Assembly: GCA_021793215.1 (NCBI GenBank) | Contig: JAJYTE010000026.1 | Coordinates: 1 to 37,280, forward strand | Reading direction: 5' to 3' | DNA length: 37,280 nt | Source: Bacillota bacterium | GTDB taxonomy: Bacteria > Bacillota > Sulfobacillia > JAJZYS01 > JAJYTV01 | The notes under the pieces: model-generated | Databases searched by the model: none | What the model was told of the DNA's origin: nothing | Seen by the model: the letters and a program-made list of their open reading frames with translations, nothing else | Program-made: the position numbers and the translations under genes | Shown: piece by piece, positions 10,599-22,803 of the stretch | Layout: the number at the start of each line of letters is the position of its first letter | How positions within the stretch are numbered: the stretch's first letter is position 1

Positions 10599-12770
10599 TC
10601 AACCGGCCCTGCGCGTAGACGTCGCGCTCCCGATCTCGCCTGGGGGCGCTGCGGCTCCGGTGAGACCGTGCGCCGTCTTCTCCCAGTGGGACGGCCGGGT
10701 CACGAGCTGCAAGAGGGCCTTCGCGGCGGCGAGCGACATCAGCCCCCAGTAGACTGGACCGAACACGGCGTACTTGACGAGGTCGTCGTCGCCCCGGCGG
10801 TAGGCGGCGACCATGTTGAGGTAGGCGAACGTAAACGTGCCGAGCAGCAGGTTTCCGGTGCCCATGTAGTAGAGCCAGCTCGGGAAGACCTGCTGGACGA
10901 AGCCCCAGTAGGTCAGAAACCACGCCGTTGTCATCGCCCAGTAGATCGGGTTCATCAGGAACGTGAACGGCGTGCCGGCGACCATCGCGTGGAAGCCGAA
11001 GAACCCGCGCGGGCCCATCTCGCGCCAGAGCTGCAGCGGGTGGCGCATGTGCACAAGCCAGGTCTGGATGTAGCCCTTCACCCACCGCGAGCGCTGCCGC
11101 ACCCAGTTGACGAACTCCGAGTTCGCCTCCTCGAGCGTCTCGGAGTCGACCATGACCGTTCGGTAGCCGGCCTTGTGCAGCCGTACGCCGAGGTCCGCGT
11201 CCTCGGTGACGTTGTAGGGGTCCCAGCCCCCGATCTCCCGCAGGACGTCGACGCGCAGGTGGTTCGACGTGCCGCCGAGTGGAATGGGCATGCGCGCGCG
11301 CTGCAGCCCCGGAAGAAGCAGCCCGAACCACATGGCGTACTCCGTCGTGAACCAGCGCGTGAGGAGGTTCTGGTTCTTGTTGTAGTAGGAGAGCTTCGCC
11401 TGGACGCACCCGACATCTGGTCCCGCCCTGCGGAAGGCGACGAGCGCCTTGCGGAGCTGCAGGGGATCCGGCACGTCCTCGGCGTCGTAGACGACGGCGT
11501 ACTCGCCACGGGCGTGCAGGAGGCCGAAGTTGCAGGCCTTCGGCTTCGTCCGCGGCTCGGCGGCGGGCAGGACGAGGACGTCGACGAAGTCGGGAAGGCG
11601 GCTGCCGAACACGGCGGACACCGTCTCCGGGTCGTCCGCCTCGAGGAGGAGTTTCACATCGAGCCGGTCCTTCGGGTAGTCGAGCGCCTCGAGTGCGCGC
11701 ATCAGCGCCTCGAGCACGTTCGCCTCTCCCCGCAGCGGCACGAATACGGTGTAGCGCGGCAGGTCCGCCTCGGCCAGCAGCCCGAGCTCCTCGTCGCTGA
11801 CACCCGTCTCCGAAATCCCGTCGGCCGGCTCCCGGAAGATCCAAAGCTTGAAGAGGGTGAGGAGGAGGTACCCCACCTGGCAGAGCGCGTTGAGCGCCAC
11901 GGCCGTTTGCCCTGGCAGGCGCCAAAGCGCCGCGGCGAGCACGCCGCCGAGGACGAGGATCCCCGCCTTCTGCCCGCGCGAGAGGAGCTCTCTCGCGGAG
12001 TCCAGGGGCCGCCGGCCCGCGCGCTCGCTGCGCGCGCTCGCGAGGTACTCGTCGGCGTAGCGGCGGTGCAGCGCCGCCTGCACGTCGCGCCGCCCGGTGG
12101 CGACGACTCGGACCTCGCCGGCAAACGCCGTCTCGAGGTCTTCGGCCAACTGGGAGTCGGTCGGATCCTCGGCCGCAACCACGAGCCGCGAACCCAAACG
12201 ATCGATCGGCACCGCCGATCGCTCACGCCAGAAGACCTCCGGCATGAGGTCCCAGGCGGCGCGGGCGCGATCGCTGCCGTCACCCGAGAGGAGGTCGACG
12301 AACGGCAGGCGCGCCTGCCGGGCGGCCACCTGGGCCACGTCGAGACGCCGCAAAGCGCCGCGGCTGATCAGGACGTCTCCGATGCGGCCGCCGCCGTTCG
12401 ACTGTTGGCGCAGCGCTGCGCGCAGCTCCCTTGGGTCCAGGCGTCCCATCGCCACCGCAACCTGGCCGAAGCGTCCGAAGCTGCGGTCCACGCGCTCCTG
12501 CGCGGCGAGAAGGTCCGCCCGATCCACGCGGCAGAGGGCGACCCTCCGGTCGAGCGTGCCCAGGAGCGCTCGCAGGCTCGGTGCCTCGGGCCAGACCGCC
12601 GCGACGAAGACCGCCTCGTCGCTCGCGTCGAAGGGGAGTACCTGTGAGGCGCGCGCAAGGTGGCGATCCATGAGCGCGGAGACCTCGGGCACCACCGGGT
12701 CGATGAGATCGCCCGCTTCCCCGCGGTAGGGTTTGAGCGAGACGAACGGCACCCCCGACGCGCGCCTCAT
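10599..12770 (-). CDS. Processive GT2 glycosyltransferase with N-terminal MshEN/T2SSE_N module (723 aa)
   Basis: A membrane glycan synthase. Residues 42-95 and 160-240 resemble the T2SSE_N fold (VPIDRLGSRLVVAAEDPTDS). Residues 100-160 resemble MshEN, with RIGDVLISRGALRRLDV fitting the RLGxxLxxxG pattern that binds c-di-GMP in MshE. After a hydrophobic pair (270-312) comes a GT2 domain with the processive signature: EADD at 377-380, DAED at 429-432, TED at 522-524 and QRSRW at 559-563. Three or four membrane helices follow. NfrB of E. coli joins the same two domains in reverse order. The start ATG overlaps the preceding stop (ATGA), and the gene ends the exosortase operon. The likely role is to make or export a surface polysaccharide under c-di-GMP control; the sugar is unknown. 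Confidence 0.88.
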   Translation of the reverse strand: MRRASGVPFVSLKPYRGEAGDLIDPVVPEVSALMDRHLARASQVLPFDASDEAVFVAAVWPEAPSLRALLGTLDRRVALCRVDRADLLAAQERVDRSFGRFGQVAVAMGRLDPRELRAALRQQSNGGGRIGDVLISRGALRRLDVAQVAARQARLPFVDLLSGDGSDRARAAWDLMPEVFWRERSAVPIDRLGSRLVVAAEDPTDSQLAEDLETAFAGEVRVVATGRRDVQAALHRRYADEYLASARSERAGRRPLDSARELLSRGQKAGILVLGGVLAAALWRLPGQTAVALNALCQVGYLLLTLFKLWIFREPADGISETGVSDEELGLLAEADLPRYTVFVPLRGEANVLEALMRALEALDYPKDRLDVKLLLEADDPETVSAVFGSRLPDFVDVLVLPAAEPRTKPKACNFGLLHARGEYAVVYDAEDVPDPLQLRKALVAFRRAGPDVGCVQAKLSYYNKNQNLLTRWFTTEYAMWFGLLLPGLQRARMPIPLGGTSNHLRVDVLREIGGWDPYNVTEDADLGVRLHKAGYRTVMVDSETLEEANSEFVNWVRQRSRWVKGYIQTWLVHMRHPLQLWREMGPRGFFGFHAMVAGTPFTFLMNPIYWAMTTAWFLTYWGFVQQVFPSWLYYMGTGNLLLGTFTFAYLNMVAAYRRGDDDLVKYAVFGPVYWGLMSLAAAKALLQLVTRPSHWEKTAHGLTGAAAPPGEIGSATSTRRAG

Positions 12771-12961
12771 CGTGGTCGTCCCCCGGTGGATGGGGGCAGC
12801 CGCGGGCGCTCGCGCGGCTGGCGCTGGGAGAGCGCCGCGTAGGCGACGATGAGTGCCGCGAAGGCGAAGATCGGCAGGACGTCGAGGATCCAGTACATGC
12901 CCGTCATCAGCAGCGGGACGAGCACCGCCGCGCTGGCCACCGCCCAGAGGCCCCGCTTCAT
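12767..12961 (-). CDS. Small membrane protein (64 aa) coupled between neighbours
   Basis: Starts at ATG 12961, overlapping the stop of the 221-residue gene by ATGA, and its own stop overlaps the ATG of the GT2 gene by ATGA. This double coupling is the main evidence that it is real. The product has two hydrophobic segments, about residues 5-22 and 24-45, and a Pro/Arg-rich cytoplasmic tail (RQPRERPRLPPSTGGRPR). No family is recognised. The tight stoichiometric coupling to a processive glycosyltransferase suggests a small subunit or assembly partner for that enzyme, which is an inference from position only. Confidence 0.75.
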   Translation of the reverse strand: MKRGLWAVASAAVLVPLLMTGMYWILDVLPIFAFAALIVAYAALSQRQPRERPRLPPSTGGRPR

Positions 12962-13623
12962 GGCTGCTCCAGGACGGGCCGCACGTGCAGGGCCGACGCG
13001 TCGTCCACCACCGACTGTACGTCGCGTCGCGCTCCCAGCCACTCGCCCAGCTGGACGCGGTCTGCCGCGTGCCCGTCGACCCGGTAGAAACCGTCGCGGA
13101 ACAGGCGGAAGCTCACCCGCAGGTGCGGCGACGACTCGAGGTCGACGATCAGGTCGCCGATCGACGCGATGCCGGTGCACGGTCCGACGAGCACGACCAC
13201 GGGATTCCACACCGCGGCATCGCCCTCTTCCGGAGCGTCGCCGTAGATGCGCAGGCCGGCTTCGAGCGGCGCGGAGCGCAGGAAGGCGAGGAAGCGGTAC
13301 GCGAGGAGAGCGTCCTCCGGCGCCAGGGCCTGGACGAGATCCGCAATGGCATGCGGTCCCGGCGGGCGATCCGCCGTGTGCGCGGTGAGCGCGTCCCCGG
13401 CCGGCGCCGGCGTCTCCGAGGCGGCGATCTCTCGCTCCGCCTGGGAGGCCACCGCCGCGGCGAACGCCGCCCCAACCTCCTGCGGGCGGGAATGGCTGCG
13501 CGGCTTCTCGCCGCGGTATCGGTGGGCGCCGCTGCGTCTGCCGAAGATGCTGCGCCGCTTGCGCTTGCGCTCCTTGCGGCTGACGAAGTGACCGTACTCT
13601 TGGGCGTGCCATGGCTGCTGCAA
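12958..13623 (-). CDS. Unknown protein of the exosortase operon (221 aa)
   Basis: I do not recognise this family. TTG 13623 is chosen because AGGAGG lies eight bases upstream. The first 45 residues are very basic (SRKERKRKRRSIFGRR), then comes an Ala/Pro-rich linker, and the folded part begins near residue 90 with ADLVQALAPEDALLAYRFLA. It contains VWNPVVVLVGPCTGIASIG and DLIVDLESSPHLRVSFRLF, alternating strands and helices like a small alpha/beta domain. There is no signal peptide or membrane segment. It lies 101 bases after the GT2-GtrA gene and is translationally coupled to the small membrane protein, so it probably works at the cytoplasmic face of the glycan machinery. Its basic head could contact phospholipid or nucleic acid. 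Confidence 0.7.
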   Translation of the reverse strand: MQQPWHAQEYGHFVSRKERKRKRRSIFGRRSGAHRYRGEKPRSHSRPQEVGAAFAAAVASQAEREIAASETPAPAGDALTAHTADRPPGPHAIADLVQALAPEDALLAYRFLAFLRSAPLEAGLRIYGDAPEEGDAAVWNPVVVLVGPCTGIASIGDLIVDLESSPHLRVSFRLFRDGFYRVDGHAADRVQLGEWLGARRDVQSVVDDASALHVRPVLEQP

Positions 13624-13724
13624 CGAGTTGGCCTCCTCAGGGCGGCGCGTGTTGGGACAAGATTAGCGCCGCTTCGCGCTCCTCCGCAGTGTCGCGAAGG
13701 GTATCGGAGCGCGTGTCAGGAGGT

Positions 13725-14930
13725 CTACCTCGCGTCCTCCGCCGCGGCTGCCGAGAGCGCGCGCGGCAGCCGCGGCGCGCCCGCCATTTGGCCGTTCTGG
13801 CGCCGCGCCATCGCGTGGTAGCCAAGGTAGGAGAGAAGGCCCGAGAGGCCCATACCCACCGCCTTGCCGAGGACCGGGCTGCCGGCGCCCGTGCCGACGA
13901 CGGTCGAGAGCACCTGCAGACCCACGGCGCCCAGGGTCACGGCGTAGAAGCCCGCCAGCGGAAGGCGCCTGCGGAACGTGAAGCCGGAGTGCAGGAGGTA
14001 GCCGCAAAGGCTCGCGCATCCCCAGGCGATCACGGCGTAGAGCGCCGCGCGCAGAGGATCCTTCCCCGGCGGAGAGAGGGCGAGCAGGCCGAGGAACGCG
14101 AGCATGTCCACGACGGTATTGAGGAGCCCGACGGCCAGGAACCGACCTGCCCTCTGGACGACCTGCGGCGGAGCGAGCGCCTCGAGGACGGGCCGCCACC
14201 TGCGGACGGCGTGGCGAAGGAGGGCAGGAAGGCACTTCAGCATCGTGAAGATCCCGGCCCGCCTGGGGCGCACGAACCGCATCTCGACGGCAGACTCGAC
14301 GAGGCGCAGGTGGTGCTCGCGCGCCAGCAGCAGCATCTCGATGTCGAACGTCCATCCCCGGTCGCGCACCTCCGAGGGGAGGATGCTGCGCGCGAACCAT
14401 CCCGGGAAGAGCTTGAGACCCGCCTGGGTGTCGGAGACGCCGAGGCGCAGCGCAGCACCGACCAGGCGGCGGGCGAGCGTGGAAGAGAACCGGTCGATCG
14501 TCCGGCGCTGGTCGTGCGCGCGCGCCGCGACGACGCAGGTCAGGGCGGGACCGAGTTCCTGCGCCCGCCGGACCATCGGCAGCAACTCCTCCGCGGGCAG
14601 CTCGAGGTCGGCGTCGATGAAGGCCACGAGGTGGCCGGACGCCTGCCGGAAGCCGGCGAGCACCGCAGCCGCCTTGCCGCGCGGCGTCGGCAGGTGGACA
14701 AGGCGAACGTGCCACCCCCTTGGGCAGCTCCTGACGACATCGGAGGTGCCGTCGCTCGAGCCGTCGTCCACGACGATGATCTCCGGCGCGATGTCCGCAC
14801 TGAGAAGCGCGCGGCGAACGCGGGCGACGGCAACGCCGATCAGCGCCGCTTCGTTGCGCGCGGGGATGACTACGCTGACTTCGGGGCGCTCTCCTCGCCC
14901 AAGGCGCCGTTCGGTCCGGATCGCGCTCAT
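13725..14930 (-). CDS. GT2 family (polyprenyl-phosphate type) glycosyltransferase fused to GtrA (401 aa)
   Basis: Residues 15-240 form a DPM1-like GT2 domain: SVVIPARNEA at 19, VVDDGSSDGT at 53, and the metal-binding DAD of FIDADLELP at 106-108. Residues of about 255-375 form a GtrA-like domain of four membrane helices (FLAVGLLNTVVDMLAFLG, then YLLHSGFTFRR). Such fusions move a sugar onto undecaprenyl phosphate and help flip the product. ATG 14930 has GGGAGG nine bases upstream. In the operon it stands between a GT-C protein and the unknown 221-residue gene, so it probably supplies the lipid-linked sugar that the GT-C protein uses outside the cell. Confidence 0.9.
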   Translation of the reverse strand: MSAIRTERRLGRGERPEVSVVIPARNEAALIGVAVARVRRALLSADIAPEIIVVDDGSSDGTSDVVRSCPRGWHVRLVHLPTPRGKAAAVLAGFRQASGHLVAFIDADLELPAEELLPMVRRAQELGPALTCVVAARAHDQRRTIDRFSSTLARRLVGAALRLGVSDTQAGLKLFPGWFARSILPSEVRDRGWTFDIEMLLLAREHHLRLVESAVEMRFVRPRRAGIFTMLKCLPALLRHAVRRWRPVLEALAPPQVVQRAGRFLAVGLLNTVVDMLAFLGLLALSPPGKDPLRAALYAVIAWGCASLCGYLLHSGFTFRRRLPLAGFYAVTLGAVGLQVLSTVVGTGAGSPVLGKAVGMGLSGLLSYLGYHAMARRQNGQMAGAPRLPRALSAAAAEDAR

Positions 14931-15045
14931 GGGCACCAGCCTCCCTGTGTACACCTCCGTGGTACGGCAGGGCGCCCCGCGGCGCAGTGCTACGGCGCAT
15001 GTCACATGGCGTATCGGACGCTGTGCAAGGGCGGGGGGCCCCGTC

Positions 15046-16662
15046 CTAGGGCGCGTTCGGGCCGACCCGGTACAGTTCGTAGATGCCGCCGCCCGCGAAG
15101 GTGGCGAACGCGTGCAGCCACGAGATCTTTCCGGACGAGATCCCCGGCCACGCGTTCGCAACGGCGTTGGGCTGGTCGGCAGGGCCCGCTGGCACGAGGA
15201 ACGCGTCGACGCGGCCGCGCGGATTGCGCAGGATGCTGTTGAAGGCGCTGTCCGAGCTGATGATCAACTGGCGCGGGTTTCGGACCCGAAGGATGATCGG
15301 GAAGGCGAACGCCGAGTCGGCCAGCACCGTGAGGTCGGGGTGGGCGTTCAGGTAGGCGACCACCTTGTCCCTCGCAACGTACTCGCTCCGCACGCGCCCC
15401 TGGTAGAGCGAGACGACGTCCGGTCCATCGCCGTGACCGAGGATGGGGCTCTTCGCGAGGGCGTATCCGGTACCGGCGTCCCCGAGCGCCAGCACGAGCG
15501 CGAGGGCGGCCAAAGGCGCCCAACGCCAGCGCGCCCGCGGCAGCTTCGCAGCGAAGAGCCCGATCAGTAGGAACCCCATGGGGATGTAGTACATGAAGTA
15601 ACGGTCCACCCCGCTGCTCAGGCCGCGGTAGAGCAGCGCGAACTGCAGGAGCGGCACCGCGGCGGTCGCCGCGAGGAGCACCGGCATTCGCGCGTCCCGG
15701 CGCCTCCCGAACGACTGGATGACTGCAAAGAGCGCGGCCGGGATGACCGGCCAGAAGAGAAGCGCGAAGCCCGCGACGTAGCCCGCCGCGTGCAGCGGAT
15801 GGCCCTTCAGCTGGCTGAGCAGGGGGTAGCCGTACGCTCCGAAGCCGGAGATCGCCGCGTTGCTGTAGGTGCCGTCCATGAAGAAGAGCGGGTTCTTCAT
15901 CACGAGCCAGTTGAGGTAGAGCCAAAGGCCGCTGACGTAGACGAGGGGAGCCGCGAAGATCAGGAGCGCCGCCTCGATGCGGCTCCATCCCGTGCCCTTC
16001 CAGCGCAGCACCACGAGGAGGGCGAGGCCCAAGAGCGCACCGAACGGCGCAGCCTCATAGCGGATGACGAACCCGACCGCAAGCCAGAGCGCCGCGGCGG
16101 TGAGGCTGCGAAGGCTGCCGCGCTCAAGGTAGCGCAGCACGCCCCGCAGCGTCCCGAGCATCGTGGCGATCAGCATGATTCCAGTCATCCCGTTCGCGCC
16201 GTAGAGAAGGATCAGCGGGTTCGCCGCGAATAGCAGGCCGGCCGCGGCGCGGAAGGCGAGGGGCAGGCCGAGGTCCCACAGGATGCAGAGCAGAAGGTAG
16301 ACCGCGAGGCCACCGAAGGCCGCGCTGACGACGGCGCTCGCAAGGCCGCTTGTGACCAGCGGCGGCCAGAGGACCTTCAGCGGGATGAGCAGGAGCTCAA
16401 GGAGCGACGGCAGGGGGTTCCACACGAAGCCGATGGCGGCGAGATGCGGCGTCCTGCTGTAGAGCACGTAGAACGCGTTCGCGACGCGGGAGAACGCGTC
16501 GGATTCGATGTAGTGCAGCCCGAGGTTGATGTGGATGCCGACCGCGAGATCGATCGCCCCGGCCAGGAGCGCGAGGGCCGGCGCCTCATTCGGGCGCCTG
16601 CGGGCCGACGGCGCTGGCCCGAGGGCGGGCTGCGGGGGGGACGGGGCAGTCGCTGCCAGCAT
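15046..16662 (-). CDS. GT-C fold multipass membrane glycosyltransferase (538 aa)
   Basis: A polytopic protein of about 11-12 helices with a C-terminal soluble part (from about residue 420), the layout of ArnT/PMT-like (GT39/GT83) enzymes. The first external loop has HYIESDAFSRVAN near residue 50, where GT-C enzymes carry the catalytic acidic residues, and WNPLPS follows in the next loop. It would use a polyprenyl-phosphate sugar as donor and act on the outer face of the membrane. ATG 16662 is used; GGAGG lies 12 bases upstream, rather far, so the start is not sure. Its place right after the exosortase and before a polyprenyl-phosphate GT2 suggests glycosylation of the sorted surface proteins or of a glycan to which they are attached. 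Confidence 0.82.
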   Translation of the reverse strand: MLAATAPSPPQPALGPAPSARRRPNEAPALALLAGAIDLAVGIHINLGLHYIESDAFSRVANAFYVLYSRTPHLAAIGFVWNPLPSLLELLLIPLKVLWPPLVTSGLASAVVSAAFGGLAVYLLLCILWDLGLPLAFRAAAGLLFAANPLILLYGANGMTGIMLIATMLGTLRGVLRYLERGSLRSLTAAALWLAVGFVIRYEAAPFGALLGLALLVVLRWKGTGWSRIEAALLIFAAPLVYVSGLWLYLNWLVMKNPLFFMDGTYSNAAISGFGAYGYPLLSQLKGHPLHAAGYVAGFALLFWPVIPAALFAVIQSFGRRRDARMPVLLAATAAVPLLQFALLYRGLSSGVDRYFMYYIPMGFLLIGLFAAKLPRARWRWAPLAALALVLALGDAGTGYALAKSPILGHGDGPDVVSLYQGRVRSEYVARDKVVAYLNAHPDLTVLADSAFAFPIILRVRNPRQLIISSDSAFNSILRNPRGRVDAFLVPAGPADQPNAVANAWPGISSGKISWLHAFATFAGGGIYELYRVGPNAP

Positions 16663-16737
16663 TACGCGGGTCGCCCTCCGTTCGTTGCTGTCTGCTGCCA
16701 GGAGTTGGACGCCCTCGCGCGCGCCGGCGTCCGACGC

Positions 16738-18393
16738 TCAGTTGACCGCGGCGGCCGACACCGCGGATCTGCCGTCCTGCTGCGCCAAGGACGTCGCCAG
16801 GTTGGCCGCGAAGCGCTCGAGACCCGTTCGGGTCGTCTGCAGATCGCCCGGCCACGTTCCGTAGGGAGGAGGCATCGAGATCGCGGAGATGCCGCTGGCC
16901 GGCTGCGGCGCCCGGGCGGCCTCCAGTGACGCCGGCCAGGTGCCGGCGCCCTGCGGCAGCGCGGCGACGGCGTAGCGCAGGTACTCCACGGCTCCTCCTG
17001 GGAGCTGCACGGCGCTCTCCCACTCGATGTCCTCGTAGCGCGTCCACGTGCCGCCGACGGCGTTCGGCGGGAGCTCCAGCGCGTAGTCGGCCGCGGGCGC
17101 CCGCGGCGCGACGTCGAACACGCGCAGCGCGTTCAGTCGCTCGCCGTGGAACATCAGGCAGTTGCGGAAGCCGTAGCTCTGCAGGTCGCCGAGGTTGCGC
17201 GTCGCCCAGACCTCGGCCAGCACCGCGGCTCCACCCGGCGCCACATAGGTGCCCGCGACGCTCACCGCACCGGGCCCGAGGATGCTCGCGTCGTTGTAGC
17301 GTTGGGTCGAGGCCAGCCGGAAGCCGGCCATCCTCGGCAGGAGCGCCGCGACACTCGACGTCTTCACCGCGAGCGGCTTCCCGGGCGCGCCGTAGGGTGT
17401 CGAGAAGATGGGCCAGAGCGACAGGAATAAGGCGCCGCCGATCAGCCACGAGGTCGCGATCCGCCCTCGTCCCGCAACCGGCGGCCGTCCGGCGATGGGA
17501 GCGCGCGGAGCGAGCCCGACCCAGCCCGCTGTCGACACGAGGCAGACCGCAAGCAGCGCGAAGAGCGCGAAGCCAAGCACGGGATGCAGCACGCCGAGGG
17601 CGAAGTTCGCGCCGAAGTAGTGGAGGGCGTAGATGATCGCTCCGAGCCGCAGGAGGTTGAAGAGGACGGCGCCGCCAAGCGCGGCCAGCACCACGAGCCC
17701 CTTGCGCCACGCCGCCCCGGTGAACTGGGTCAGGAGGAAGGGCAGCAGGATGGCGGCCCCCAGGGCGCCGTCCGCGCCGCTGCACGCCTCGGAGATCAGG
17801 ACGGGGACGATGCTCGTGCCGTGCGCAACCAGGAACGTGCTGGATGCGCCTTGCGCAATGAGCCACGGCAGGAGGTGGCTCGCCCGGACCGTGGCGGCGA
17901 CGGCGATGGCCACGAGCTTGCCTTGGGTCACCGTGGCGACGGCGCTCAGCACGGGAGGCCAGCAGGCCAAGAGGTAGATGAGCGGCCAGATCAGCGCGCG
18001 GGTCACGCCGATCCCGAACAGAAGCCAAGCCATGCCCAGAACCCACAGCGGCCAGAGCAGAAGGCCGGCGTCCTGCATCAGGAAGAGGTAGGGCCAGCGC
18101 GCTGCACCGATCACGAGGGCGGCACCCACGAGGCCGAGGAGGCTGACGCCAAGGATGGCGTTCAGCTCCGCGTCGTCCGCCGGCTGCGTTGTGCGGTTGA
18201 TGCTGTAGGCGCCCCACACGATGGAGAGAACCGGGATCCAGACGAGGTAGGCGGTCGGGGTGTCGGCGAGTACGCTCCGCCAAAGCGGCATGGCGAAGGC
18301 GGCAAGCGGTGCGAGGGAAAGCAGGGCCCAGAGTGAGATGTGCAAGCTGCGAGGTTGCGGCGTCCCGATGTTCGGTCGCGTCGCCGCGATCAT
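16738..18393 (-). CDS. Exosortase-family transpeptidase with long C-terminal domain (551 aa)
   Basis: Residues 20-300 form the eight-helix exosortase/archaeosortase core. All three catalytic residues fit the family pattern: Cys204 in SEACSGADG, Arg249 in FNLLRLGAI and His270 in GVLHPVLGF. After a further helix near 340, residues of about 360-551 make a soluble extracytoplasmic domain (FRNCLMFHGERL, then TWTRYEDIEWES), comparable in position with the EpsI-like domain fused to or encoded beside some exosortases. The start ATG 18393 overlaps the stop of the first surface-protein gene (ATGA). By family knowledge it would cut the C-terminal signal of secreted proteins and pass them to a carrier. 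Two candidate substrates with matching tails are encoded on either side of the divergent promoter. I cannot place it in a named Xrt subfamily. Confidence 0.88.
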   Translation of the reverse strand: MIAATRPNIGTPQPRSLHISLWALLSLAPLAAFAMPLWRSVLADTPTAYLVWIPVLSIVWGAYSINRTTQPADDAELNAILGVSLLGLVGAALVIGAARWPYLFLMQDAGLLLWPLWVLGMAWLLFGIGVTRALIWPLIYLLACWPPVLSAVATVTQGKLVAIAVAATVRASHLLPWLIAQGASSTFLVAHGTSIVPVLISEACSGADGALGAAILLPFLLTQFTGAAWRKGLVVLAALGGAVLFNLLRLGAIIYALHYFGANFALGVLHPVLGFALFALLAVCLVSTAGWVGLAPRAPIAGRPPVAGRGRIATSWLIGGALFLSLWPIFSTPYGAPGKPLAVKTSSVAALLPRMAGFRLASTQRYNDASILGPGAVSVAGTYVAPGGAAVLAEVWATRNLGDLQSYGFRNCLMFHGERLNALRVFDVAPRAPAADYALELPPNAVGGTWTRYEDIEWESAVQLPGGAVEYLRYAVAALPQGAGTWPASLEAARAPQPASGISAISMPPPYGTWPGDLQTTRTGLERFAANLATSLAQQDGRSAVSAAAVN

Positions 18394-19157
18394 GCGGCGG
18401 CCCCGCGGCGGCGCATCAGGAGGTAGAGCACGGGCAGGGCGAGGAGCGGCAGCGCCGCGGCGAGGGGAGCCTCCGGCAGGTCGTTGGCGGGAAGGGCTGG
18501 CCCGCTCGCCGCGCGGCCCTGGAACGACACGGTGTGCGCCGCGTACCCGGGCGGCGCCGTGAAGTTGCAGATGACGAGGCCACTGGTGCTCGGGTTGGGA
18601 GAGCAGGCCGCGGGCGGGACGTAGTCGGCGATCGCCGCCCCTGAGGCGCCTTCCGCATAGCTCCCGAGCAGGTAGACGGTATCCCCCGAAGGCACACCCT
18701 CCAGGGTCGCGGCGAGGGGAGTGCCCGCGGGCTGCGCCCCGGTCGGAGACACGACGAGGTGCGGGAGGGCACTGCCCTCGGCAGGATCCAGGGCGATCCA
18801 GTAGGAGACGCGTCCCGCGACGGCGGGGACGCGCGCGGACACCGCGCCCGCGCGGACCTGGGCCGCGTCGGGCGAGAGGCTCTCCTGTGTTAGCGCACTT
18901 CCGCCGCTGCCGATCGCGAGAAGGTAGATCGCGCTGCCGCGCGGGAGGGCGCCGGGGTCGAACGCGATGCGGGCGTAGGAACCCGCCGCGAGCTGTTTCC
19001 GGTAGGGGCTCCCGAGTGTCAGGTACGCCGGCGGGTGCAGGGGCGCGGCGAAGGCATGGGTTCGCATCTCCGATGCGCCGATCCCTACGAGGCCGGCGGT
19101 GATGGCTGCAGCGGCAAAGGCCCAGCGCAGAGCCCGGGGCCATGGGCGCGTGCGCAA
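18390..19157 (-). CDS. Secreted protein with C-terminal LPEAP exosortase-type sorting signal (255 aa)
   Basis: First gene of the exosortase operon. TTG 19157 is chosen because GGGGGAGGT lies seven bases upstream; an ATG at 19238 has no such site. A signal peptide follows at once (RTRPWPRALRW, then a hydrophobic stretch to about residue 27). The mature part is rich in Ala, Pro, Gly and Ser and beta-like, with a Cys pair in ACSPNPSTSGLVIC near 190-205. The last 31 residues begin NDLPEAP, continue with a hydrophobic stretch of about 17 and end in RRRGAAA, the three-part layout of a sorting signal. The same tail, of the same length, is on the protein encoded at 21440. Its own function is unknown; it is the likely substrate of the overlapping exosortase gene. 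Confidence 0.82.
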   Translation of the reverse strand: MRTRPWPRALRWAFAAAAITAGLVGIGASEMRTHAFAAPLHPPAYLTLGSPYRKQLAAGSYARIAFDPGALPRGSAIYLLAIGSGGSALTQESLSPDAAQVRAGAVSARVPAVAGRVSYWIALDPAEGSALPHLVVSPTGAQPAGTPLAATLEGVPSGDTVYLLGSYAEGASGAAIADYVPPAACSPNPSTSGLVICNFTAPPGYAAHTVSFQGRAASGPALPANDLPEAPLAAALPLLALPVLYLLMRRRGAAA

Positions 19158-19402
19158 CAGGGCACCTCCCCCTCGGAGAGCGTTGTCCACGACGCTACCA
19201 AAGGGCGGACCTCGGCGCAGTATCCCGGGCGGTCTCACCTGCGGTCACGGGGGCGATCTGGGCGCAACCAGCAGAAACGTGGCGCCGCGGCGCGAAGCGA
19301 GGGGAAGGAAGATGTCTCTCCTTCGACGGCGTTCAGCGTGCGTCGCCGAAGGAATCTCCTACGTTTGTAGCGATACGGCACGTAGCTGGAGCGAGGTACG
19401 CG
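19158..19402. promoter_or_regulatory. Divergent intergenic control region of the exosortase locus
   Basis: These 245 bases separate the leftward surface-protein/exosortase operon from the rightward ATPase gene and should hold both promoters. Imperfectly inverted arms CCTTCGACGGCG and GCGTCGCCGAAGG (about 19324-19352) are the only symmetry I see. No strong -35/-10 pair can be named. Confidence 0.4.
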
Positions 19403-21352
19403 ATGTCGATCGAACAGGCGCTGCTGGAGATTGAGTCACGGCGTTTCGTTGGCCGCGGTGCGCAGCTCGCAGAACTACTGGAGCTTACGGAGCGGACGGC
19501 CCAAGGCGCCGCTGTGGGGTATATCTACGGGCCGCAGGGCATCGGCAAGACGGCGCTTCTTCGCGCCTTCACCAGGTCGCAAGCACGCAGCGGCCAGCGC
19601 GTGGTGGCGTACGTTGAGGCGCGCAAGGCCGCGGGAGTCGAGCAGGGCGTGGTGCAGCAGGTCGCATCGGCGCTCGGCCTCGGCGAGGACGGCGTCCAGA
19701 TTGAGGAGCTGTGCCAGGCGATCGAGCGCTTCGCAGAGCGCCAGGGCCTCCTCCTTGCGATCGACGACTACGACGCGCTCGGGCCGGAGGAGGCCGCTGT
19801 GCGCGAGCGCCTGCTCTACCGCCTGCCCCGCGGCGCCGCGGCAGTGTTGACGGGCCGCACAGGCCCGACTTCCTTGTGGCCGCTTGAGCGGGCCTGGCGC
19901 CGTTTCGTCACGCACATTCCGCTCGCGGGATTGACGCAGGAGGAGACGGAGCGACTGCTGACCGCGCAGGGGATCGCGGACGGCTCGGTGCGGCAGGACG
20001 CCTTCCGCCTCACCGCCGGCCGGCCCGCCCTTTTGGCGCACGTCGCCGACCTGCTGGGCGCAGAAGAGGTGGCGGCGACGGTGTCGGAGGATGTGCCGAC
20101 GGGCGCTTCCCTCGCGCAGGAAGAGGTCCCCGCGTTCCTGCTCGAGCAGATCCTGCACCCTGGCTCCAGGCGTCGGACCTGGCGCCCGCACGAGGGCGCC
20201 CATGCGCTGGACAACGTCCTGGCCGCGGCATCGCTCGTGCCCGCCTTCAGCCGCGACCTGCTGTGCGCGATGGTCGGGCCGACCGCGGTCGCGGACGCGT
20301 GGGATGCCATCGCGGAGCTGCCCTGCAGGGCGGAGCCCGGGGGATGGTACCGCCTGGAGGAGAGTCTTCGCGCGGTCGTCGGCGAAGTGGTCCTGCGAGA
20401 GCATCCGTGGCTTAGCGAACGCCGCCTGCAGCGGGCGCTCAGGCACCTCCTGGGCCCGTCGCACCTCGCTCGCGGCGCGAGGAGGCGAGGAGGCCCCACG
20501 CTCCAGCTGATCCTCGAGGTCTTGGCGCGCTCCTCCGGTGACAGGACGGCCCAGAGCGCGGGCGGCGTCTCCGTCGGACTCGGAGCAGGGGAACTCTCGC
20601 GTCTCGCGTCGTGCGGAGCCTGCCCGGACGCCCTCCTACACCTTGTGCGGTTGCGGCCGGATCAGGTGCGCTGCGTGCGGGACCCTGAGGGAAACGCGCT
20701 GGCCGCCGCGGCACTCGTCCCAGCCGCGGACTTCCCTTCGCATCTCCTGCCGGGGGAACCCGGCCCCGCGCCCGGGATCGTGGCGGCCCTCAGCGCCACC
20801 GAGGCGACGCACGCCATGTGCCTGATCGGCAGCCTCGCGGGCTCTTTTGAGCATTCGAGGTCCGCCCTCTGGGCAGTGCCGCCAGGGCTCGGAGGACTCT
20901 TCGCCCGGCTCGGCTTCGCCCCGCTCGCAGAGGGATGGTGGCAGATTCGCTTCTCGCAGCGGCCCTTCGCCCAGTGGCTTTCGGAACTCGCGGTACCGCT
21001 CGTCGCCGCGGCGCCGGTCGAGCGCCCCGAACTGCTGGCGAAGGAGGTGCTGCAGGCTCTCTACGCAGGGCAGGACCCGATGGACACGCAGGCCGCCTCG
21101 GTCCTCTCCGCCAGGCGCGCGGGCACGACGGCGGAAGACCTGCGCCGATGGGTCCTCGACGCGCTCAGCACCGCCGAACTCGGCGATGTGCCATGCTCCC
21201 TGCGCTCCTTGCTGCGCATGTACTACGTGGACAAGGCCGGTCCGCATGAGGAGATCGCGGAGCGGCTCGACCTGCCGCGGGCCACCTACTTCCGCGCCTA
21301 CCGGCAGGCGCTTCGGCAACTTGGCTTCGCGCTCTGCGGGATCGGCCCCTGA
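19403..21352 (+). CDS. P-loop ATPase with C-terminal HTH-like region, putative regulator (649 aa)
   Basis: A STAND-like or AAA-type ATPase. FVGRGAQLAELLELTE (residues 15-30) is the usual entry to such domains, Walker A GPQGIGKTA is at 43-51 and Walker B LLLAIDDYDAL at 117-126. GRTGPTSLW near 152 is a sensor-like motif. The middle (about 250-560) is helical with no motif that I know. The last 60 residues (LRSLLRMYYVDKAG, then HEEIAERLDLPRATYFRAYR) look like a sigma-70 region 4 or HTH unit that ends the chain, so DNA binding is likely. ATG 19403 has GAGG upstream. It is transcribed away from the exosortase operon and toward a second sorted protein, and so is the natural candidate for control of both. 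Confidence 0.75.
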   Translation: MSIEQALLEIESRRFVGRGAQLAELLELTERTAQGAAVGYIYGPQGIGKTALLRAFTRSQARSGQRVVAYVEARKAAGVEQGVVQQVASALGLGEDGVQIEELCQAIERFAERQGLLLAIDDYDALGPEEAAVRERLLYRLPRGAAAVLTGRTGPTSLWPLERAWRRFVTHIPLAGLTQEETERLLTAQGIADGSVRQDAFRLTAGRPALLAHVADLLGAEEVAATVSEDVPTGASLAQEEVPAFLLEQILHPGSRRRTWRPHEGAHALDNVLAAASLVPAFSRDLLCAMVGPTAVADAWDAIAELPCRAEPGGWYRLEESLRAVVGEVVLREHPWLSERRLQRALRHLLGPSHLARGARRRGGPTLQLILEVLARSSGDRTAQSAGGVSVGLGAGELSRLASCGACPDALLHLVRLRPDQVRCVRDPEGNALAAAALVPAADFPSHLLPGEPGPAPGIVAALSATEATHAMCLIGSLAGSFEHSRSALWAVPPGLGGLFARLGFAPLAEGWWQIRFSQRPFAQWLSELAVPLVAAAPVERPELLAKEVLQALYAGQDPMDTQAASVLSARRAGTTAEDLRRWVLDALSTAELGDVPCSLRSLLRMYYVDKAGPHEEIAERLDLPRATYFRAYRQALRQLGFALCGIGP

Positions 21353-21439
21353 CGATACCGCGCACGACACCGGTTTTCGCTCCGGCGGTGCTACTGCGCT
21401 CCGGCAGAGCGCGGCGATATCGTCCATCCTAAGGAGTTG

Positions 21440-22000
21440 ATGCCATTGTCGCCGCGCGCATCGCTTTGGGGAGCCGCACTCGCGGTCGTCGCCCTCCTCG
21501 CGACGGCTGCACCAGTGCTCGCTGGGGGAAAGGACAACGCCAACGGAACCCCCATCTCCCTGACGGTCACACAGGACAGTGGTGGCCAGTATACGTTCGC
21601 GGTTTCGAAGTTCAACGGGTCCGCAGCCCTCGTGCGATTCTGGGAAGTCACCGACGCTACCAAGGACGTCGACAATGGCGGCGGCATCCAGATTGGAAGC
21701 TGCGCGAAAACGCAACCGGGAGTCACGGTAGCGAACAGCACCCTGACCTGCACCATCACGCCGTCGCCCTCGATCTCCACCGGCACCGTGCAGGTCGTGG
21801 CCGCGGAGTACAGCTCCCCGAACACGGGCGCCGGCAACACGATCGAGAACAACGAGGTCAAGGAAGAGTCCAAGCCCGTGACGATTACGGGCGGAATCCC
21901 GCAGAACAACCTGCCGGAGGTGCCGTACGCCGCCCTTCTGCCAGCGCTCGCGCTCGGCGCTGTTTTCCTCTTCCGTCGCCGGCGCACCCAACCGGTCTGA
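21440..22000 (+). CDS. Secreted protein with C-terminal LPEVP exosortase-type sorting signal (186 aa)
   Basis: A signal peptide (SLWGAALAVVALLATAAPVLA) precedes a mature domain of about 130 residues, Thr/Ser/Val-rich and beta-like, with a Cys pair in GSCAKTQ and LTCTIT that may form a disulfide. The last 31 residues begin NNLPEVPYAALLP, run through a hydrophobic stretch and end in RRRRTQPV. This matches residue for residue in layout the tail of the 255-aa protein encoded at 18390. AAGGAG stands 3 bases before ATG 21440, rather close, and 9 bases before an in-frame TTG at 21446, which may be the real start. It lies 87 bases after the ATPase gene and before a strong hairpin. The function is unknown; it is probably an exposed or shed surface protein. 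Confidence 0.82.
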   Translation: MPLSPRASLWGAALAVVALLATAAPVLAGGKDNANGTPISLTVTQDSGGQYTFAVSKFNGSAALVRFWEVTDATKDVDNGGGIQIGSCAKTQPGVTVANSTLTCTITPSPSISTGTVQVVAAEYSSPNTGAGNTIENNEVKEESKPVTITGGIPQNNLPEVPYAALLPALALGAVFLFRRRRTQPV

Positions 22001-22068: not shown

Positions 22069-22803
22069 TCAAAGCCGTGCGAAGACCAAGACTCCGACGA
22101 TGAGCAGTACCAAGGCGGAGACGACATGCCCGTTCCTCTCGAGCCATGGCCACTCGACCTGATAGCCGCCGATCGTGGTGACTACGGTCAGCACGACGAA
22201 CGTGGCGATCGTCGCGAGCGTGAAGGCGATGAGCACTCCCACTGCGGCGCCAACCCCGACCGCGGACGCCGCGAGGAACACAGGCAGGATCGTCAGGTCA
22301 GGGGACGCCGCGACGCCGAAGGGCACCGCGACCTCGGTCATCCAGGAGCCGCGCCGCCGTTGCGGCCCGTGCGCAGGGTCCTTGGCATCGTGCGCGTGTT
22401 CGCTGCCGTCGCGGCGGCTGTGGACGTGATCATGCTCATGGGAGTGACCGTGATCGTGGCTGTGCGCGTGCGAGTGCCCGCGTCCGCGCGTCAGCAAAGC
22501 CCAGACTAGAAAGCCGATGCCTGTCAGGATCAGTACGCCGCCGACGATCTGACCCTCTTCGGACACGATCTTGTCCCGTAGCGCCAATCCCGCTGCGGCG
22601 AACAGCACCCCGAGCACCAAGGAGACCGCCACATGGCCCAGCGACGCGAGGAGGCTGGTCTTCGCGGTACGCGCGATGCTCCAACGGTTCGCTCGTGCGA
22701 TGACCGCGAGCGGAACCCAGTGATCTGGCAGCACGGAATGTGCGATGCCGACGCCGGCAGCGGCCGCGAGCAGCAGGGGGATTGATGTCAGGGAGATCCT
22801 CAT
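22069..22803 (-). CDS. NicO/NiCoT-like nickel-cobalt transporter with His-rich loop (244 aa)
   Basis: A membrane protein of about six helices. The first helix carries HSVLPDH (His22, Asp27, His28), the HX4DH metal motif of nickel/cobalt permeases. A cytoplasmic His-rich loop at about 110-145 (GHSHAHSHDHGHSHEHDHVH) is typical of RcnA-like and UreH-like members and binds metal. The second half repeats the helix pattern (VAVPFGVAASPDLTILPVF). ATG 22803 follows AGGAGG by only two bases, an unusually short spacing, but no other start is in reach. Import or efflux cannot be told; the long His loop leans to metal detoxification. No urease or hydrogenase gene is near. Confidence 0.85.
   Translation of the reverse strand: MRISLTSIPLLLAAAAGVGIAHSVLPDHWVPLAVIARANRWSIARTAKTSLLASLGHVAVSLVLGVLFAAAGLALRDKIVSEEGQIVGGVLILTGIGFLVWALLTRGRGHSHAHSHDHGHSHEHDHVHSRRDGSEHAHDAKDPAHGPQRRRGSWMTEVAVPFGVAASPDLTILPVFLAASAVGVGAAVGVLIAFTLATIATFVVLTVVTTIGGYQVEWPWLERNGHVVSALVLLIVGVLVFARL

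Follow-up and report, generated by a model that had tools for sequence, protein, structure and literature searches.

The locus studied here raises the question of what an exosortase does with its substrates when it is encoded among glycosyltransferases in a Gram-positive genome. To our knowledge, the acceptor of bacterial exosortases is still open. We analysed a window of 37,280 nucleotides, taken from a genome of 2.74 Mb (87 contigs, 97.7% complete), together with related loci and genomes. The reading that we favour, with a probability of about 0.75, is that the locus encodes an exosortase-based sorting module of an unclassified subtype, which would deliver proteins bearing an LPEVP tail to the extracellular matrix, where the acceptor is most likely sugar-based. 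Acid-loving Gram-positives of the class Sulfobacillia would then possess an unclassified sorting machinery with its own LPEVP tag and a synthase that is probably activated by c-di-GMP. Our literature search, of incomplete coverage, found no description of an exosortase system in Sulfobacillus, and in a comparison of bioleaching acidophiles exosortase genes were reported for Leptospirillum ferriphilum alone (PMC5418355). Haft 2006 described exosortases that lay mostly beside EPS genes (PMC1569441).

Gene organization of the locus

The initial annotation had called nine genes between positions 10599 and 22000 of the window, and all nine are open frames at the positions below.

10599..12770, minus strand: MshEN-GT2, a cellulose-synthase-like GT2 preceded by an MshEN (c-di-GMP-type) domain (PF13632, 97 bits; PF05157, 68.1 bits)
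12767..12961, minus strand: 64-aa protein with two hydrophobic helices by hydropathy; ATGA overlap at either side
12958..13623, minus strand: 221-aa protein, function unassigned by sequence; C-terminal ~90 aa conserved
13725..14930, minus strand: GT2-GtrA, a fusion of a GT2 with a GtrA membrane domain, of the polyprenyl-phosphate glycosyltransferase type (PF00535, 97.3 bits; PF04138, 42.9 bits)
15046..16662, minus strand: GT-C-type membrane glycosyltransferase, 538 aa (weak PMT_2 match, hydrophobic segments, homologues)
16738..18393, minus strand: exosortase, 551 aa (PF09721, TIGR04178, invariant residues)
18390..19190, minus strand: surface protein 1, tail NDLPEAPLAAALPLLALPVLYLLMRRRGAAA (tail profile E 1.7e-9 at 18393-18485)
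19403..21352, plus strand: STAND-type ATPase with a C-terminal helix-turn-helix-like end (PF13401, 48.1 bits; PF13191, 48.0 bits)
21437..22000, plus strand: surface protein 2, signal-like N-terminus, tail NNLPEVPYAALLPALALGAVFLFRRRRTQPV (tail profile E 5.3e-13 at 21905-21994)

Four of the leftward genes had been reported as joined by ATGA overlaps. Such overlaps exist, but they number three and join five genes in two groups, namely surface protein 1 with the exosortase, where the overlap was read directly in the sequence, and the 221-aa, 64-aa and MshEN-GT2 genes. The remaining gaps between leftward genes measure about 75, 115 and 101 nt. Codon usage favours starts at 14930 for GT2-GtrA, at 19403 for the ATPase and at 19190 for surface protein 1, for which an upstream GTG at 19238 is also possible. 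In a promoter and terminator scan, the number of sites was close to that obtained with shuffled sequence.

Several of these genes keep their company elsewhere. The 221-aa protein, which matched no model in Pfam or NCBIfam, adjoins MshEN-GT2 again in several loci, the 64-aa protein is found beside MshEN-GT2 in most, and homologues of the STAND-type ATPase are present at several related loci.

An exosortase of unclassified subtype

The 551-aa protein scores 53.7 bits with PF09721 (cut-off 25.7) and 36.6 bits with TIGR04178 (cut-off 23), and an alignment of nine homologues shows no variation at Cys204, Arg249 and His270. Both scores bear out the exosortase call of the initial annotation and place the protein in the exosortase/archaeosortase superfamily, with a predicted peptidase or transpeptidase activity. 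None of the named Xrt subfamilies compared (XrtA, B, D, G, T, V, W and X) reaches its curated cut-off with this protein: XrtV comes closest at 36.8 of 313 bits, with XrtA at 31.9 of 208 and XrtD at 20.9 of 400, and eight homologues, near and distant, likewise stay far below these cut-offs. A profile of the family returned 476-827 bits for 21 members including the window exosortase, nine of the scored members having themselves been used to build it, and 140-167 bits for three distant members (two Dormibacterota candidates and locus L045). Exosortases elsewhere in our phylum sample obtained less than 20 bits or no score, which already sets the family apart; they are rare in that sample, occurring in 8 of 398 genomes, three of these eight in the class Sulfobacillia. 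An own, unclassified subtype is supported by these comparisons. Beside another exosortase of the phylum (L094, genome G166), a neighbouring protein ends in IPEFPTPVAAILVLGMCAAGYAWFRKR, a tail resembling archaeal PEF-type signals.

The window exosortase is laid out as a multi-helix membrane core (residues ~1-330) and a C-terminal extracytoplasmic domain (~345-540), which comes after the last predicted membrane helix and contains invariant Cys412 and His416. PEP-CTERM exosortases often bear EpsI at the corresponding place (PMC1569441); the C-terminal domains of nine members matched nothing in Pfam at E up to 10, EpsI models included, a result compatible with divergent kinship. A sequence search for solved structures returned no homologue of the exosortase, and Foldseek gave no significant match for the whole AlphaFold model (pLDDT 77). 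VIA-align aligned the C-terminal domain with TM1622 (Z 9.0, rmsd 3.3, 124 aligned) and further with the PknH extracellular domain (8.0), Mog1 (7.9), DcrB (7.6) and PsbP (7.0). Because a best Z between 7 and 8 is commonplace for unmatched models, a Mog1/PsbP-like fold is put forward as a suggestion, drawn from the consistency of the match list.

LPEVP tails and the proteins that carry them

The 22 tails that were aligned have in common the pattern [GN]xLPEVP[YWL]AAxLP; a hydrophobic stretch comes next, and the end is basic. In three loci the tail of the surface protein 1 orthologue reads LPEVAW or LPEAVY, which narrows the firm core to LPE, and a homologue of surface protein 2 in genome G002 adjoins GT-C. 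A tail profile, built with both window tails included, has three matches in the window genome (E 5e-13, 5e-11 and 2e-9), one of which, not itself in the profile, lies on another contig (C14:32467-32550, locus L062) within a 372-aa open frame, away from the exosortase locus. The initial annotation had assumed two sorted proteins; both window tails stand, but the third raises the number of candidate substrates to at least three. With tail E-values from 5e-13 to 2e-9 and a module that returns in about 20 related loci, tails and locus amount to more than chance.

Most carrier genomes contain one to six tail matches, and the tailed proteins, of which genome G045 has six, differ widely N-terminal to the tail. 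Many substrates per sorting enzyme is a pattern known for LPXTG and PEP-CTERM proteins (PMC3237569), which the LPEVP proteins resemble in this respect. The structure model of the surface protein, at a pLDDT of 57, was too low for a structure search.

The proposal that the locus has its own tail type is supported, and NCBIfam sorting-signal models respond only weakly to the tails. Up to an E of 10, the PEP-CTERM model TIGR02595 matched none of the 22, in a search whose filters may lose short models; five of the 22 match the LPXTG model weakly (best E 0.043), and the helix and basic end of one tail lift it slightly above the cut-off of a generic MYXO-CTERM model. A tail match in genome G016 (E 0.0024) was set aside as chance, given that it covers the helix part only and that no LPE tail is seen in the long frames of this genome.

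Recurrence and co-occurrence

In a neighbourhood survey of 20 family loci, a tailed gene is present at 18, and most also contain MshEN-GT2, the 64-aa protein and GT-C, the exceptions being mainly short contigs. Two outcomes had been named initially as refuting the module, namely failure of the 551-aa protein with every exosortase model and homologues that regularly lack glycosyltransferases and tailed proteins; both were checked, and neither was found. The module first described from a single locus does exist, but it is not unique: it recurs across Sulfobacillia, and Dormibacterota candidates contain distant forms.

Among 48 good-quality relatives, the exosortase and MshEN-GT2 occur in the identical eight genomes (Fisher p 2.7e-9), GT-C occurs in the same eight, and the tail profile detects seven of these carriers plus one probable false match (p 8.5e-7); these p-values overstate the evidence because the genomes are related and not independent, half of the carriers belonging to one family. 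The carrier missed by the profile, G030, has two variant TPETP tails near its exosortase, seen in the locus copy L044. Genome G004, of the same family and 99% complete, has neither exosortase, MshEN-GT2, GT-C nor tails. Gene order and co-occurrence agree in tying the exosortase to the glycosyltransferases, as had been proposed, and the predicted sorting of LPEVP proteins by the exosortase is well supported by co-occurrence. Exosortase, tail and a synthase probably under c-di-GMP control make up a compact unit, present or absent together, which makes the acceptor question testable.

Two loci deserve separate mention. At L044 (9628-12231, on the same contig as L022), two proteins with TPETPYTAIFA tails are interleaved with broken MshEN-GT2 pieces, which hints at a rearrangement of the locus. 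At L030, the DNA examined contains a family exosortase but neither a recognisable tail gene nor a full MshEN-GT2 nor a GT-C; this is possibly an orphan or reduced system, the exception being real or apparent.

Glycosyltransferases and c-di-GMP

The PF05157 score of MshEN-GT2 compares with a cut-off of 23.1 bits. The MshEN domain takes up about residues 95-245. From residue 100, the protein contains two motifs of 24 residues each, separated by 5 residues, and in this it resembles the c-di-GMP site of MshE, which has a 24+5+24 layout (PMC5013675). Motif I differs from the pattern at one hydrophobic position and is degenerate in some relatives, and the strict c-di-GMP motif model NF053729 gives 36.1 bits against a cut-off of 38. 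The PF05157 score and the layout identify a probable c-di-GMP domain, in line with the c-di-GMP-type synthase initially described. As in processive GT2 synthases, DAED, TED and QRSRW motifs are present; DAED and QRSRW are conserved, and TED is AED in 3 of 10 aligned proteins.

The function of E. coli NfrB, which also unites GT2 and MshEN, needs c-di-GMP binding and glycosyltransferase activity (PMC8669469). The window protein is like NfrB in joining processive-type GT2 motifs to an MshEN domain (PMC8669469), but differs in its reversed domain order, with MshEN first, in scoring 30 of 1170 bits with the NfrB model and in its exosortase neighbourhood. Taken together, the MshEN layout, six GGDEF domains in the window genome and the NfrB precedent make it likely that MshEN-GT2 is controlled by c-di-GMP. 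The XrtP-associated glycosyltransferase (NF053846) is likewise an exosortase-associated GT2, with a window score of 30 bits against a cut-off of 520. A second, more distant MshEN-GT2 relative (38% identity) lies away from the exosortase locus in G045 (C1:674696-676540).

GT-C scores 17.8 bits with PMT_2, below the cut-off of 26.1, and has 12 hydrophobic segments and clear homologues in related loci. The GT2 part of GT2-GtrA returns in several related loci, and GT2-GtrA itself is not seen in all of them.

Comparison with known exosortase systems

The closest system known from Bacillota, XrtG/Firmicu-CTERM, combines an exosortase with a tailed protein of its own and a pair of glycosyltransferases in Gram-positive hosts (PMC12854382), all of which have counterparts here. 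The window exosortase, however, has no match to the XrtG model TIGR03110 at E up to 1, its best relative reaching 27.2 of 102.75 bits; with the XrtG glycosyltransferase model the score is 27.4 of 363.95 bits; and the window system has a different tail, an extra MshEN domain, a GT-C and an extra C-terminal exosortase domain. With PEP-CTERM/EpsH systems (XrtA and relatives) the locus shares the exosortase core, the tripartite tail and an EPS-gene neighbourhood, and some of their members have an extra C-terminal domain too (PMC1569441). It differs from them in missing the subfamily cut-offs, in having an LPEVP and not a PEP tail and in the absence of EpsI matches. We also take Sulfobacillus, unlike the hosts of PEP-CTERM/EpsH, not to be an outer-membrane lineage. 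Judged by these comparisons, the locus is a variant of the exosortase/CTERM type, distinct from both XrtG/Firmicu-CTERM and PEP-CTERM.

Proposed mechanism and alternatives

Read from sequence, the enzyme family, its catalytic residues, the tails, the gene order and the co-occurrence suggest the following model. Proteins that begin with a signal and finish in an LPE[V/A]x tail, made up of the motif, a hydrophobic helix and a basic end, would be exported and retained in the membrane by the tail, as their signals indicate. The exosortase would cut near LPE through a Cys204 thioester, as expected of its family, and would then release the protein or hand it to an acceptor, bringing it to the extracellular matrix. 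A sugar-based acceptor appears most likely because of the tight co-occurrence with glycosyltransferases, and could be either the polymer of MshEN-GT2, probably synthesized in the c-di-GMP-bound state, or a sugar that GT-C transfers from a lipid-linked donor supplied by GT2-GtrA. The STAND ATPase is probably the regulator of the locus. The most specific form of this model, covalent coupling of LPEVP proteins to new exopolysaccharide under c-di-GMP gating in a Gram-positive acidophile, strikes us as somewhat improbable; if true, one second messenger would set both polymer synthesis and protein attachment.

A simpler account is quite conceivable, if short of even odds: the exosortase would merely trim or release LPEVP proteins, or transfer them to lipid, and the glycosyltransferases would make a separate, co-expressed biofilm polymer. 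Archaeosortase A has been modelled as lipidating its substrates (PMC7157517), and disruption of EpsH in Methylobacillus left production of the polymer methanolan intact (PMC1569441), so that sorting and polymer synthesis can be separate. The presence or absence of MshEN-GT2 and GT-C with the exosortase is, however, tighter than co-expression needs.

We consider it unlikely that GT2-GtrA and GT-C glycosylate LPEVP proteins all along the chain, regardless of how the C-terminus is processed, with the exosortase releasing the glycoproteins. The pair would fit multi-component transmembrane glycosylation, in which a lipid-linked sugar donor serves an external transferase, and GT-C does co-occur with the exosortase, but some related loci have no visible GT2-GtrA. 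That the tails are LPXTG-like signals for a classical sortase, leaving the exosortase another role, is very improbable and was rejected, despite the weak LPXTG matches and the sortases of many relatives, since PF04203 has no match in the whole window genome, extending to genome scale the initial remark that no classical sortase was in view, or in genome G003, both LPEVP-tailed, while many sortase genomes lack such tails, sortases associate only weakly with the system and the tails track the exosortase.

Taxonomic distribution and flanking genes

Scanned with the single exosortase sequence, named genomes gave no match; an alignment-based scan found homologues in, among others, Sulfobacillus thermotolerans Kr1, S. 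benefaciens AMDSBA1, S. acidophilus AMDSBA3 and acid-mine Bacillota MAGs. The earlier assignment to a probable Bacillota genome was right, and from homologue names and kinship labels we infer the class Sulfobacillia. The module occurs in the complete genome of a named isolate, S. thermotolerans Kr1, and predicts a matrix-protein system in bioleaching bacteria.

Distant homologues occur in Candidatus Amunia and Candidatus Aeolococcus, which we take to belong to Dormibacterota. In the Dormibacterota candidates L046 (7904-11584) and L048, a distant exosortase lies near MshEN-GT2 and GT-C, and a secreted protein encoded in its neighbourhood at L046 terminates in a variant tail that contains EAPWVPG.

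Outside the nine genes, a phage-type integrase (PF00589; 3567-4733, plus strand) lies in the part of the window with the lowest GC content (57% against ~67-70%), a region that is likely a mobile element. At 22069-22803 (minus strand), a membrane protein with no Pfam match carries a His-rich loop (HSHAHSHDHGHSHEHDHVH) and looks like a metal transporter.
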